Shown piece after piece: positions 50,119-59,169 of a stretch of DNA of 64,000 nt; within the stretch, counting starts at the first letter, position 1, and the number at the start of each line of letters is the position of its first letter. The position numbers and the translations under genes were made by a program. A model generated the notes under the pieces. The model did not search any database. It had not been told where the DNA came from and saw only the letters and a program-made list of their open reading frames with translations. Source of the DNA: Verrucomicrobiota bacterium (lineage in GTDB: Bacteria; Verrucomicrobiota; Verrucomicrobiia; Verrucomicrobiales; Verrucomicrobiaceae); NCBI GenBank assembly GCA_025360015.1, contig JANYCZ010000008.1, positions 1 through 64,000 on the forward strand, in the 5' to 3' direction.

Positions 50119-52593
50119 TCACCCCGCCCGCGTCACCCGTTTCCAGAAAAAGTCGAGCTCCCGCGCCAGCGCGCTCATCACCTGCGCCGGCGTCGCCTGG
50201 AGGCTGCCGGCTTCGGACTCCTTGATGATCCGCTGCATGGCATACAGCGCCGCTACATTCTGCGTGTCCAGGTGGATCGCATCCACATTCTCCCGCAGCA
50301 CTTCAGGGAAAGCGGTGCTGTGCTGCAAAATCGCCCAGCTCTGCTGCTCGCGGTCTGTCTTAAAGGTCGTGATCTTCAGCTTGGGCACCTTAAGGCCCGA
50401 GGCCTGCGCATCCAGGTTCAGCTCCGCCAGACGGCCCGCCGCAAAACCTGCCAGCGTGCGCCAGTAGGAGCCATCCGCAAAGTTCGCCAGGCCAAACACG
50501 ATCTCCAGTCCTTGCAGGGACCAGCACACCGCATAGCGGCCCGTCATGCCCGGCAGCTCATGCTCGCTGAAGCGCACCAAAGGAAAGCGCTTGCCCGCCA
50601 GCCGGATCAGATCTGCCAGCTTCGTAAAATCCAGCGGCAGGGAGACCGCCTCCGCCGCCATTTGCAGCCGCAGTGCCTCGTAGCGACCCAGCAGCGCATC
50701 ACGCTCCGCATTCGGCGCAGCCACCGTGCCGGGCAGAGGGGGCGGCCCGCTCGCAGCAGGCGCGGGCTTGGTAAAAGTGGGCGCAGGCAGAGCCGGAGGC
50801 ACCGCTGGCGCAGCCACTGCAGCCAGCACAGCCGGGGTCGCCGTCGCATCCATCACCTCCGCCAGGCGTTCCGCCACATCATGCGTGCCGTTGCTGCTCT
50901 CAGCAGCAGCCGCATGCGGCGCACTCGGCTGCCGCAGTTTGCCCAGCATCTCGCGCAAATTTTCAAACGCACCCGCCGAGCTCGGCGAGAATTGCGCGGA
51001 CGTCTCGCCCGCCTCACTAGCAGCAGCGGTTCCGGTCACCGCTGCACGCGGCAGCGGCGGATGGTTCCCGTTGCCATTCAGTCTGACAGGAGGCGGAGTC
51101 AGCAGCGGCGCGCCCTTCGGCTGCGGTGCCTCATTCTGCGGCGGCAGCGGCAGCGGCACTTCATTCTGCTGCGGCAGCGCCGGCGTCGGTTCCGCCAGTC
51201 CCTCCGCCATCAGCTTCATCTGCGCCGTCGTGGTGGAGTCAAAGATCGAATTTTCATCCGCAGCCTCGGCGTCCCCATCCAAATTTTCCGGCACCTCGTC
51301 CGTCAACAGCGGCAGCGTGCCCGGGCCTTCCGCTGCGGGAGGCTGTGGTATCAGCGCCGGCGGCGCAGGGGGTGAGGCCAGCGTTTGCTGGAAAAAATCC
51401 CACTGCTTCGCCGCATGCCGCAGAAACGTCCGCGCAGACACCGAGCCCAGCGGCCGCCCCAGGAAATACCGCTTCACATCCAGGAACATCGTAAACTCAC
51501 GCGCCTTGCCCGCCACGATGCCCGCATGCTGAAGGCGCAGACGCAGCAGCGTCACCGCTTCGCTTTCACCGATGCCGCGCAGCAGCATCTGCGAAGCCGT
51601 CAGCCTGTCCTCCATCGCACTCGGCAGATGATGCCCAAACGTCGCCTGCCACACATCCTGGTTCAGGCTCAGCACCACATGCACGCCATCCATCTCAGAC
51701 ATGTCCAGCAGCAGCGAGGCGATGCGCAGCCCCGCCTCCGGATTGCGGTAATACGCATCCAGGTGATCCACCAGCAGCACCACGGGACGCCACAGGCCCA
51801 GCAGTCGCAGCCACGTCACCGGGCCCTCGTTGCTCTCATCTGCCGCCAGCATGCGCAGCACCGCCACGTGGGACATCCCGCCATCCAGCGCGTGATTCAG
51901 CATCGCATTCACCCAGGACTCCAGCGCCGCAGGGATCGCAGGCACACGCTTCATGGCCTGCTCCGTCATCGGCTTGCGCAGCTGCCCTTCAAAGCGCCGC
52001 ACCCATTCACCGATCAGGCGCGCATTGCCGCTCGCATCGAAAACTTCCACCGGATCCCCGCCCAGCACGCGCAGCGCCTGCTCAGGATTCGCACAGGGCA
52101 GCGTACCATTTTCGATCAACCGCCGCACCAAAATCGCACACACGCCAGCGCAGGCCTCACGCAGCTTCGTCCAGCCCTCTCGCGAAGCCTCCGCCCGTGC
52201 CATGGACTCCAGCCCGCGCACCGCCACGGCTGAAATGCCGATGGTATCCTCCAGCCGAAATGCCAGGGGTACTAATACCACCTGCCCATTCGCCGCAGCC
52301 GCCAGCCGCCCCAACAGATGCGTCTTGCCATAGCCCGCGCGTGGTGCCGTGAGCAGCAGCAGAGGCTGCCCGCCCGCCCGACCCGCCGTGCTCTGGCGTT
52401 CATCGATCGTCGTCGTCAACTGGCCCAAAATATCGCCATTCAGCCCCGGCACCGAGCGATTCTCCTCCACGCCAAACGGCCCCGCGCAGACATCGTCCGC
52501 AAACGGATTCAGGCCCTCCGCCTGCGGCAAGGAGTGCGGCAGTCCTAAAGCGGACGGCAGCGGTGATAGCGATGGTGATTCTGGACTTTCCAC
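50119..52593 (-). CDS. P-loop ATPase of unknown function with Pro-rich linker and C-terminal domain
   Basis: 824 residues from a GTG at 52593 (no earlier Met before residue 130). The N-terminal ATPase (about residues 30-420) has a Walker A-like APRAGYGKTHLL (Lys90-Thr91) and Walker B VVLLVDHLDAYY. A sensor-like segment VHVVLSLNQDVW follows, giving the overall look of AAA+/STAND or KAP-type NTPases. A low-complexity Pro/Ala linker (about 425-610) joins a roughly 200-residue C-terminal alpha/beta domain (FSEHELPGMTGRYAVCWSLQ...LKITTFKTDREQQSWAI...) that is unassigned. There is no membrane segment. Roles in DNA transactions, defence or protein remodelling are all possible. It sits next to the 178-residue partner. 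Confidence 0.7.
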   Translation of the reverse strand: MESPESPSLSPLPSALGLPHSLPQAEGLNPFADDVCAGPFGVEENRSVPGLNGDILGQLTTTIDERQSTAGRAGGQPLLLLTAPRAGYGKTHLLGRLAAAANGQVVLVPLAFRLEDTIGISAVAVRGLESMARAEASREGWTKLREACAGVCAILVRRLIENGTLPCANPEQALRVLGGDPVEVFDASGNARLIGEWVRRFEGQLRKPMTEQAMKRVPAIPAALESWVNAMLNHALDGGMSHVAVLRMLAADESNEGPVTWLRLLGLWRPVVLLVDHLDAYYRNPEAGLRIASLLLDMSEMDGVHVVLSLNQDVWQATFGHHLPSAMEDRLTASQMLLRGIGESEAVTLLRLRLQHAGIVAGKAREFTMFLDVKRYFLGRPLGSVSARTFLRHAAKQWDFFQQTLASPPAPPALIPQPPAAEGPGTLPLLTDEVPENLDGDAEAADENSIFDSTTTAQMKLMAEGLAEPTPALPQQNEVPLPLPPQNEAPQPKGAPLLTPPPVRLNGNGNHPPLPRAAVTGTAAASEAGETSAQFSPSSAGAFENLREMLGKLRQPSAPHAAAAESSNGTHDVAERLAEVMDATATPAVLAAVAAPAVPPALPAPTFTKPAPAASGPPPLPGTVAAPNAERDALLGRYEALRLQMAAEAVSLPLDFTKLADLIRLAGKRFPLVRFSEHELPGMTGRYAVCWSLQGLEIVFGLANFADGSYWRTLAGFAAGRLAELNLDAQASGLKVPKLKITTFKTDREQQSWAILQHSTAFPEVLRENVDAIHLDTQNVAALYAMQRIIKESEAGSLQATPAQVMSALARELDFFWKRVTRAG

Positions 52594-57327: not shown

Positions 57328-58095
57328 TCAAGCCGCCACCCCCACCGTCTCAAACACCTTCAGCTCCCGTCTGAAGCCATCGTGCCAGTCAGTGTTCCAC
57401 TTCTTCTTTTTGCAAATATTGAGCAGTTCGCCTTCATCCAGAATGCCCTCCTTCGTCAGCAGCCGGTGCGTCAGCACATTCACCACCACTCCGTTCCAGT
57501 CCTTGTCCGCCATTTCAAAGTAAAGACTGGCCGCGCGGATGTGCGCAAAGTTCGCCTCCTTTTCCAGAGAGTCCCCCGTGAGTTCGTCGTGCTTGATCTT
57601 CAGCCGCTTCACCCGCTGCTTCTTGAGGTTCTTCTGCGTGCTCTGCAACTGCTCGCGAAACTCCGCCCGCAGCAGCCGCGCATCCTTGCTGTCGCGCACC
57701 TGCCGGTACACCGCCTCGGAATACTTCAGGTATTCCACCGTGCGTGACACCACGGGCGACTGAATGGACTCATTCACCCACTCGCAGATCTTCGTGCTGC
57801 GCACCAGCGTCTCCAGCACCTTTTCACCTCCCATCAGATTCGTCCCTGTCATCTGCACCTTGTCGCGTCTGCCCACGCTCCCCACCAGATAGCGCGCCTT
57901 GTCCTTCTTCGTCCGCAGGATGGTGTGCAGCTTGCTCACCTTGACCCAAACCGCACCTCGCTGGTCGATCACAGACGCCGCAACCCAGGCATTAAAAATC
58001 CCCTTCAAAGTTCCTTTCGCCAGTCCTCCCTGCAGCTCCAGAAAATCCAGCCCCAGCTCTTCGCCTGTCAGTTTGCGATGAATGAGCGAGTTCAT
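57328..58095 (-). CDS. HNH-endonuclease-like protein
   Basis: 255 residues. A charged helical segment (about residues 125-170, rich in Arg and Lys) precedes the candidate HNH core: ELTG (171-174), FAHI with His185, NGVVVN with Asn201, and THRLL with His210, followed by KEGILDE. This order matches HNH nucleases of the AHI-NG-xx-N-xxx-H-LL/F-D/K-G type (e.g. HNH_2). If active it would bind one metal ion and nick or cut DNA. There is no signal peptide. The start codon lies two bases after the stop of the J-domain-like gene, so the pair is co-transcribed. Sequence similarity is judged by motif only. Confidence 0.55.
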   Translation of the reverse strand: MNSLIHRKLTGEELGLDFLELQGGLAKGTLKGIFNAWVAASVIDQRGAVWVKVSKLHTILRTKKDKARYLVGSVGRRDKVQMTGTNLMGGEKVLETLVRSTKICEWVNESIQSPVVSRTVEYLKYSEAVYRQVRDSKDARLLRAEFREQLQSTQKNLKKQRVKRLKIKHDELTGDSLEKEANFAHIRAASLYFEMADKDWNGVVVNVLTHRLLTKEGILDEGELLNICKKKKWNTDWHDGFRRELKVFETVGVAA

Positions 58096-58097
58096 AA

Positions 58098-58781
58098 CTA
58101 GGCGGTCATTTCCTGGAACATCATGGCCAGTTCATTCGCGGCGTCGTGCGCTTTGGCGTGACGGCACACATCGGGATGGATCTGCATCGCAATCCGGTTC
58201 CGCCATAGCTTTGCCAGCTCCGCATCACGATAATGGGCCTGCGTCAGCCCCAGCACCCGCTGGCGGCATTCACCATCCAGTTCCACCAGAGCGAAAATCA
58301 GCCGGGCGGGCTCCGAAACAAAATAGCTCTCCCCTGTCTGCGGCGAGCCCCCGGTCGGAAAAACGCTGCGGTGAATGTACTTCCGCGCCTTGCCATCCTT
58401 CACCTCCAGCATCCCACCGCCGGCGCACAGCGCCTTCACCGCCGCCGTCACTTCGGCAAGCGTGTAATGTTTGAACTTCTTCAGCGCTTTGCCGAGATCA
58501 GCCTCCTTCCAAAGCACCGCCCCCTTTTCCTCGCTGGTGCGCTGAAGCAACTCCGCCAGCGCCTCACCAGCAGCCACAGGCGGATGCTCCCCAGCAAACC
58601 AGAAAACAACCCCACCGCTGACCTTTTGGACGATCCGCCCCTCCTTCTCCAAATCCAGCAAAGCCGCCTGCTTCTCCAGCACCTTGCTTTTGCCGATCAA
58701 AGAAGAACGCGCACACCCCACACCACCCGCCTTGTGCAGCTTCGCCAGAAGAGCTTGGACCGTTTTGGAATCTTCAGGCAT
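58098..58781 (-). CDS. J-domain-like protein with helical/winged-helix-like N-terminus
   Basis: 227 residues from ATG 58781 (MPEDSKTVQALLAKL). The N-terminal two-thirds (about residues 1-150) contain repeated helix-strand segments (LIGKSKVLEKQAALLDLEKE; GRIVQKVSGGVVFWF; YTLAEVTAAVKALCAGGGML), resembling two winged-helix folds. The C-terminus has a J-domain-like helix pair around His202-Pro-Asp204 (WRNRIAMQIHPDVCRHAKAH), ending soon after helix III. HPD is the Hsp70-stimulating loop of J proteins. The gene ends two bases before the HNH-like gene, so they form one unit. Which Hsp70, if any, it contacts is unknown. Confidence 0.6.
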   Translation of the reverse strand: MPEDSKTVQALLAKLHKAGGVGCARSSLIGKSKVLEKQAALLDLEKEGRIVQKVSGGVVFWFAGEHPPVAAGEALAELLQRTSEEKGAVLWKEADLGKALKKFKHYTLAEVTAAVKALCAGGGMLEVKDGKARKYIHRSVFPTGGSPQTGESYFVSEPARLIFALVELDGECRQRVLGLTQAHYRDAELAKLWRNRIAMQIHPDVCRHAKAHDAANELAMMFQEMTA

Positions 58782-59169
58782 AAGAGGAGCGCGTAAGCAG
58801 CAGGATGGCAGCAGAGCATGAAAGCTAGGCATGGCAAATACTACGCCAGCTCATTTCCTCTGAAGCTCAACTTTTCCGCCCCTGATTTCTCCATCCTCCT
58901 CGCGGCCATTCACGCCTTCCAGAGCAAGCTAAAGCTCGCGACTACTTTTCGCTCCCTCCATTCTCAGCCACCTCTTCCCCCTTGTCCTTCGCGTGAAGAA
59001 GCATCACTCTCCGCCCGCAAAGAACCCCGCCCACGCCGCGTTAAGAAATACTGATTAAAACCGCAGCGCAAAGAAGACCGCACAGAAATGCCTTCAAACT
59101 CCGATCTCTGCGGTTTTCTAATCTCTCGCGGTGCAAATCATTCAGTGCTTCTTTAAGCGTCTCCCTCTC
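58782..59169. promoter_or_regulatory. Divergent intergenic region with interrupted inverted repeat
   Basis: The HNH/J-domain unit and the DUF4175-type gene diverge from this 388-bp gap. gattaaaaccgcag (59053-59066) pairs with ctgcggtttt-ct-aatc (59108-59123), leaving a 41-base loop. The element lies 46-117 bp upstream of the DUF4175-type start codon. No other clear promoter elements were identified. Confidence 0.4.

Follow-up and report, generated by a model that had tools for sequence, protein, structure and literature searches.

The window analysed here, a 64,000-nucleotide stretch of DNA from a Verrucomicrobiota bacterium, carries two adjacent minus-strand genes, the first encoding a J-domain-like protein and the second an HNH-like endonuclease. 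Computational comparison finds the two genes paired, in a constant order, diverging together and mobile in some copies, with predicted folds in keeping with both names. The two-gene unit is widespread but patchy, and its J protein is tentatively proposed, at close to an even chance, to be a dedicated partner of the nuclease in a chaperone-controlled toxin-antitoxin or abortive defence module.

Recurrence of the Gene Pair

A first-pass annotation of the window had singled out two minus-strand open reading frames (ORFs) separated by 2 bp, and both were located where it placed them (Table 1). The reading frame of the J gene is open from 58832, and its start at 58781 is common to the related species G001 and G002. 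Among three species, the ratio of nonsynonymous to synonymous substitution rates (dN/dS) is 0.14-0.16 for the J gene and 0.10-0.16 for the HNH gene, which indicates purifying selection on both. Neither protein scores above the cut-off in curated Pfam, NCBIfam or PADLOC models.

Co-occurrence in verrucomicrobial genomes had been named as a check on the pairing, and the pair recurs across phyla, well beyond those genomes. Seventeen intact pairs, referred to as the compact branch, were found in Verrucomicrobiota (three), Clostridia (three), Fusobacteria (four), a cyanobacterium (one), Gammaproteobacteria (five) and a viral contig (one). An additional pair in Salinivibrio carries a frameshifted HNH gene. 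The partner gene comes first in all 17 intact pairs, with a gap of -14 to +8 bp, and two small adjacent or overlapping genes with the partner leading is the usual layout of type II toxin-antitoxin systems. Over 16 pairs, J and HNH distances are correlated (r = 0.872; 0 of 20,000 permutations as high), in a comparison that ignores shared ancestry.

Of 56 relatives of the window searched from the HNH gene, 3 have the pair, a count that includes the genome of the window itself. In Fusobacteria, HNH matches occur in 5 of 98 genomes, and each of the four strong ones has an adjacent J gene. Around a Clostridium and around Serpens, 1 of 341 and 1 of 321 genomes matched, in each case the genome of the query itself. 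Plasmid searches added Klebsiella pneumoniae, Klebsiella oxytoca, Acetoanaerobium and Vibrio/Photobacterium records, and the viral collection added one contig. Ten plasmid records match the window HNH protein; nine of them come from Vibrio/Photobacterium and have the same match scores, and one of these nine (L005) was opened, its partner being counted as an adjacent gene and excluded from the J count. A scan of the genome collection starting from the J protein yielded 10 loci, with an HNH frame directly downstream in eight, one of them broken. Three of four plasmid-collection records with a J match were opened, F. animalis being left out. Weak HNH matches (G1157 and G188) and weak J matches (G1126, G1129, L020 and L021) were excluded from the counts. 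Nothing useful came from phage searches with the HNH proteins of the window, K. oxytoca, Clostridium and cyanobacteria, by a viral scan with query A7, or by a search for the K. oxytoca pair in Escherichia coli genomes. As a single query in its own phylum, the window J protein matched 1 of 387 genomes, its own.

A second branch came to light in cyanobacteria. Fifteen weak HNH places in 14 cyanobacterial genomes belong to a second family, and a J-domain gene with an HPD (His-Pro-Asp) tripeptide lies directly upstream in 15/15. A profile search with this branch found 46 places in 39 of 194 cyanobacterial genomes; a single split gene accounts for two of these places, and five others are fragmentary or weak matches. 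For the long HNH genes, including one interrupted by an insertion, the gene immediately upstream encodes a J protein with HPD in 40/40 cases. The 15 initial loci overlap these 40 and are not added to them, and because the loci share ancestry, the cyanobacterial counts do not represent independent events. Comparison of branch profiles (97.1%, E 7.3e-11 over 205 columns for HNH; 77.9%, E 1.8e-5 over 51 columns for J) indicates that the compact and cyanobacterial branches are homologous. Plasmids searched with the cyanobacterial HNH protein gave nothing useful, and the cyanobacterial profile matched 1 of 249 Verrucomicrobiota genomes, weakly, over 61 positions. In the split locus (L144, 2100-5802), the insertion is about 2.6 kb long and the upstream J gene is intact.

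Because 17 intact loci in one branch are joined by 40/40 long HNH genes in a homologous second branch, the pair is more than a chance neighbourhood. A chance ORF pair is ruled out by purifying selection together with recurrent pairing. A homing endonuclease with a passenger gene is likewise ruled out, because unrelated sites show the same partner in the same gene order.

The J-Domain Partner

The first-pass annotation had noted a C-terminal HPD in the 227-residue protein, and the tripeptide is indeed encoded there, between two predicted helices. The AlphaFold model of the J protein is poor overall, with a mean predicted local distance difference test score (pLDDT) of 66.0 and a predicted template modelling score of 0.42. 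Confidence is high at the C-terminus, where the pLDDT blocks for residues 181-244 are 81-95; the helices lie at 187-193, 204-218 and 228-243, and HPD separates the second from the third. By structure comparison, the model resembles the DnaJ-like domains 2ys8 (Z 9.0, root-mean-square deviation (rmsd) 5.4 over 74 residues) and 6jmg (Z 8.5, rmsd 2.4 over 70). A Foldseek search returned DnaJ-like 2ys8 at a probability of 1.00 with E 0.07, and no match at E <= 0.001. The six best matches of a 16-member J family profile in the PDB are all DnaJ chains (best E 0.007); each window protein as a single query in a PDB sequence search gave nothing useful. A J-like fold, for which a structure-prediction check had been proposed, is therefore predicted with DnaJ-like best matches. 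This supports the partner as a J-like protein, which may stimulate the Hsp70 ATPase.

The window J protein does not reach the Pfam DnaJ cut-off (E 0.19; 12.3 bits with 27.8 required). The compact-branch relatives L030, L012 and L011 score 19.4-21.4 bits (E 2.7e-4 to 1.1e-3), also below the cut-off, and L028 has no DnaJ row; the cut-off is passed by four of five cyanobacterial J proteins tested. The phage family phrog_17986, of unassigned function, covers residues 169-243 of the window protein at E 7.4e-15. Many winged-helix structures match the middle domain, at scores (Z up to 7.6) too low to make a shared arrangement specific, and shorter partner proteins lack this domain.

Among the 17 compact-branch J proteins, 11 retain the HPD tripeptide, four carry HSD in its place, one SPD and one RED; those without HPD retain the remainder of the J sequence. 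Short J proteins of 103 amino acids have HSD and no extra domain.

The HNH-Like Protein

The model of the downstream protein (mean pLDDT 78.7) places a strand at 182-185, a strand at 202-205 and a helix at 207-216, an order that fits a beta-beta-alpha metal finger; pLDDT falls below 50 at residues 189-197. Residues 148-243 align to EcoKMcrA (Z 5.4), Cap5 (Z 5.2), VcaM4I (Z 5.0) and the GeoCas9 HNH domain (Z 5.0). The metal-finger fold, the other half of the proposed structural check, is thus predicted as HNH-like with HNH nucleases among the best matches, and the protein is supported as HNH-like and as a predicted nuclease. His185, Asn201 and His210, read by the first-pass annotation as a motif, are all present; the two histidines are invariant in 12 aligned HNH rows, and the plasmid and integron rows do not conserve the asparagine.

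Foldseek with the HNH model found no match at E <= 0.001. The Pfam HNH models gave no HNH row for the window protein or for six compact-branch HNH proteins, and the best match of the HNH profile among PDB sequences is an unrelated reductase (E 0.003). Of five cyanobacterial HNH proteins compared with Pfam HNH_2, L047 scores 21.0 bits, equal to the cut-off, L058 scores 14.8 and three have no HNH row. The N-terminal part matches 4ye7 (Z 6.0 over 97), Mbp1 (Z 4.4) and DdrC (Z 4.1), weakly, with no Pfam support and in what may be a common arrangement. A CbpM-like domain in this part was not upheld: 3ucs_A reaches Z 2.7, and MerR-type proteins match as well or better.

Table 1. Features of the J-HNH gene pair in the window (positions of the whole stretch).
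Feature	Position	Strand	Basis
J-domain partner gene, upstream, 227 aa	58098..58781	minus	ORF; J homologues directly before HNH gene in relatives
HNH-like endonuclease gene, downstream, 255 aa	57328..58095	minus	ORF; relatives found
Predicted J domain of partner, C-terminal (residues 169-244 counted from 58832)	58101..58328	minus	model, structure matches, family profile
HPD tripeptide codons	58170..58178	minus	direct reading; aligned with relatives
Winged-helix-like middle domain of partner (residues 82-162 counted from 58832)	58347..58589	minus	structure matches to model
Predicted HNH (His-Me finger) domain, residues 148-243	57367..57654	minus	predicted fold and structure matches
His185 codon, probable catalytic His	57541..57543	minus	invariant in 12 rows
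His210 codon, probable metal-binding His	57466..57468	minus	invariant in 12 rows
N-terminal domain of HNH protein (residues 6-140), possibly DNA-binding	57676..58080	minus	weak structure matches

Genomic Context and Mobility

Some compact-branch pairs reside on conjugative plasmids, and the Salinivibrio pair adjoins tra-like genes by eye. In Serpens and Alcanivorax, both genes lie between boundaries of the GTTATGC/GCATAAC type, resembling one integron cassette. An integron integrase above cut-off occurs on another contig of the Serpens genome; none was found above cut-off in Alcanivorax or Salinivibrio, and every one of 14 control genomes has sub-cut-off matches. Folding of the attC-like sites is not clearly better than that of shuffled sequences (z -0.08 to -1.72), and the integron reading therefore rests on the boundary sequences and the Serpens integrase.

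In two fusobacteria the pair is followed after 0.2 kb by HsdM, a type I restriction-modification gene, and in Serpens after 0.1 kb by a TIR gene; in a Clostridium an HsdM gene is about 7 kb away. It is near SIR2 on the Vibrio plasmid and near UvrD-helicase, multiubiquitin and ThiF genes on the Klebsiella plasmid. Inspection by eye found ordinary neighbourhoods in a second Clostridium (L067) and Laspinema, and no methylase gene beside the pair in the window; most other opened loci also have none. Within the window's genus, a large gene beside the pair is present in 39/39 genomes and the pair in few; seven relatives opened at the pair site all lack it. Context thus leans towards a mobile or defence-type setting in part of the compact branch only. 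A RES toxin called by eye as a neighbour in Acetoanaerobium has no Pfam match and was dropped.

Two other neighbours were recorded. A DUF433-DUF5615 gene pair, likely a toxin-antitoxin system, occupies the place beside the large gene in one of the seven relatives opened (G033; L107, 9383-9942) where the window has the J-HNH pair. On the contig from the viral collection (L030, 6757-7380), a LexA-type gene identified by Pfam follows the pair by 69 bp on the same strand.

Possible Modes of Action

In the module proposed above, the J protein would be made first and bind the nuclease, holding it in a soluble, inactive state until it is required. J proteins that retain HPD may do this by recruiting the host Hsp70 (DnaK). 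Diversion of the chaperone system by phage growth or stress, or loss of the partner, would then leave the nuclease to cut DNA and stop the infection or the cell. A restrained or matured nuclease fits the partner-first order, a partner tolerated alone, co-divergence and mobility. The presence of HPD in most of the family suggests DnaK involvement; some mobile lineages have lost the tripeptide, a hint that the nuclease is bound by the J fold itself.

Several observations weigh against this proposal. With no HPD in 6 of the 17 compact-branch J proteins, Hsp70 recruitment cannot be universal. The Vibrio plasmid partner was not confirmed as a J protein by a leave-one-out profile. The HNH domain finds its structure matches at modest scores (Z 5.0-5.4), and shared ancestry could enter the distance correlation given above. 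Some HNH matches stand without a J match, namely G1157, a weak one from the fusobacterial scan, and L146, L147, L156, L157 (at a contig end) and L158, which are fragments or weak matches. Finally, the five cyanobacterial neighbourhoods opened look like ordinary chromosomal sites, and no defence island is seen in them.

The two genes are not equally independent of each other. Every complete HNH gene examined in both branches has an upstream partner gene. Five loci of fusobacteria or phage have a J gene without adjacent HNH, namely phage Funu1 (L009), F. vincentii (L010), G441 (L065), G1186 (L060) and G1118 (L064), the HNH gene having been sought within 12-16 kb in L009 and L010. G441 and G1186 carry the J-HNH pair elsewhere in their genomes; L060 is a prophage-type stretch with an ERF gene, and L064 is prophage-like by eye. 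The free-standing J genes at L060 (6129-6362), L009 (7986-8222) and L064 (6751-6981) encode 76-78 amino acids, and those of L009 and L064 lack HPD. Free-standing J genes of fusobacterial phages and prophages are possible counter-defence genes. By analogy with AdfB, a phage-borne antitoxin mimic that counters DarTG (PMC11481870), such a phage J gene could be an antitoxin mimic. A bolder version of the proposal, unlikely though not far-fetched, takes the pair for a class of immune nucleases with their own co-chaperone. The J protein would tie an HNH deoxyribonuclease to the state of DnaK, phage capture of the folding machinery would release or aim the nuclease, and the free-standing J genes of fusobacterial phages would disarm it.

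The J protein might instead be a targeting or loading subunit that brings the nuclease to DnaK-bound substrates or phage replication complexes, so that the pair cuts invading DNA directly. DnaJ and DnaK act at lambda origins. Retention of HPD in 40/40 cyanobacterial and 11 of 17 compact-branch J proteins would suit such a role, as would the winged-helix-like domain of the window J protein and the N-terminal part of the HNH protein, if it binds DNA. The occurrence of J alone, with complete HNH genes always partnered, nevertheless fits restraint better than loading, and the 103-amino-acid J proteins have neither an extra domain nor an intact HPD; a loader is rather unlikely.

A J-like protein that binds the nuclease as a fold only, without Hsp70 and with HPD as a relic, would make the unit an ordinary two-protein toxin-antitoxin pair. 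The HSD, SPD and RED variants in partners that otherwise retain the J sequence speak for it, but the same HPD counts that suit a loader are hard to explain for a relic, and this explanation seems improbable. A role outside conflict, with the HNH protein as a chromosomal enzyme of DNA processing or repair that has its own co-chaperone for maturation, is quite improbable: purifying selection and the ordinary cyanobacterial loci, two of which (L159 and L160) share the same flanking genes, agree with it, but the patchy spread (39/194 cyanobacteria; 1/341 and 1/321; 3/56 window relatives) and the copies on conjugative plasmids and in integron-like cassettes do not.

Relation to Known Systems

The first-pass annotation knew of no described system with this pairing, and none appeared in the sources covered. 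PADLOC-DB 2.0.0 (2023) holds no system with it, the best E for the window proteins and A5/A6 members being 0.004. Among the matches listed by a full-text literature search, with subscription papers and most preprints outside its scope, no title or abstract opening describes an HNH and J-domain pair, and none is present in the passages available from PMC13092281, PMC7159879, PMC3710099 and PMC7824862. The pairing itself is thus new to every source searched, to the extent that each was accessible; a partner-controlled nuclease is of a known kind, and the J-HNH unit would be a further case of it.

CmdTAC consists of three genes with a SecB-like chaperone. SecB three-gene toxin-antitoxin systems are described as placing a toxic effector under the control of a chaperone-type protein within one operon (PMC7159879), and CmdTAC as a chaperone-linked toxin-antitoxin system (PMC11618068). 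The J-HNH unit would resemble both in chaperone-type control of an effector from one operon, and differs from the three-gene, SecB-like arrangement in pairing just two genes, for an HNH protein and its J-domain partner. The response of the defence protein bNACHT25 to phage depends on DnaJ and on contact between DnaJ and DnaK (PMC12169576). The likeness lies in DnaJ/DnaK as part of phage sensing; bNACHT25 uses the host's own DnaJ with a NACHT protein, whereas the J-HNH unit has its J gene next to the nuclease gene. Chaperones are accordingly suspected infection sensors in bacteria. If the J protein controls the HNH enzyme via DnaK, the pair would be a compact example of immunity, or of toxin control, that responds to the state of protein folding, and it could explain the small J genes carried by some phages.

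With EcoKMcrA, VcaM4I and Cap5 of the cyclic oligonucleotide-based antiphage signalling system (CBASS), the likeness is the predicted HNH fold. The window protein differs in having no recognised modified-base or nucleotide-sensing domain, and in having a J partner in place of a methylase or signal synthase. Restriction-modification systems are defined by a cognate methylase, and the two-gene pair has none; the cyanobacterial HNH proteins match a PADLOC type II restriction enzyme model weakly (10 of 15 members, best E 1.1e-5). The phage family phrog_17986 is akin to the J domain of the window protein and differs in being short (77 positions), with the members seen, such as that of Funu1, standing without an HNH neighbour. 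In the CbpM-CbpA system, CbpM binds a J-domain protein, and its likeness to the N-terminal part of the HNH protein is too weak to count.

Two further features of the window were noted. A perfect inverted repeat of 10 bp lies upstream of the J gene (59057-59066 and 59108-59117, with 41 bp between the arms) and may be due to chance. At 50119-52593, an 824-amino-acid P-loop ATPase-like protein with only a sub-threshold AAA_16 match (E 0.0069) is kept near the pair site in several relatives.
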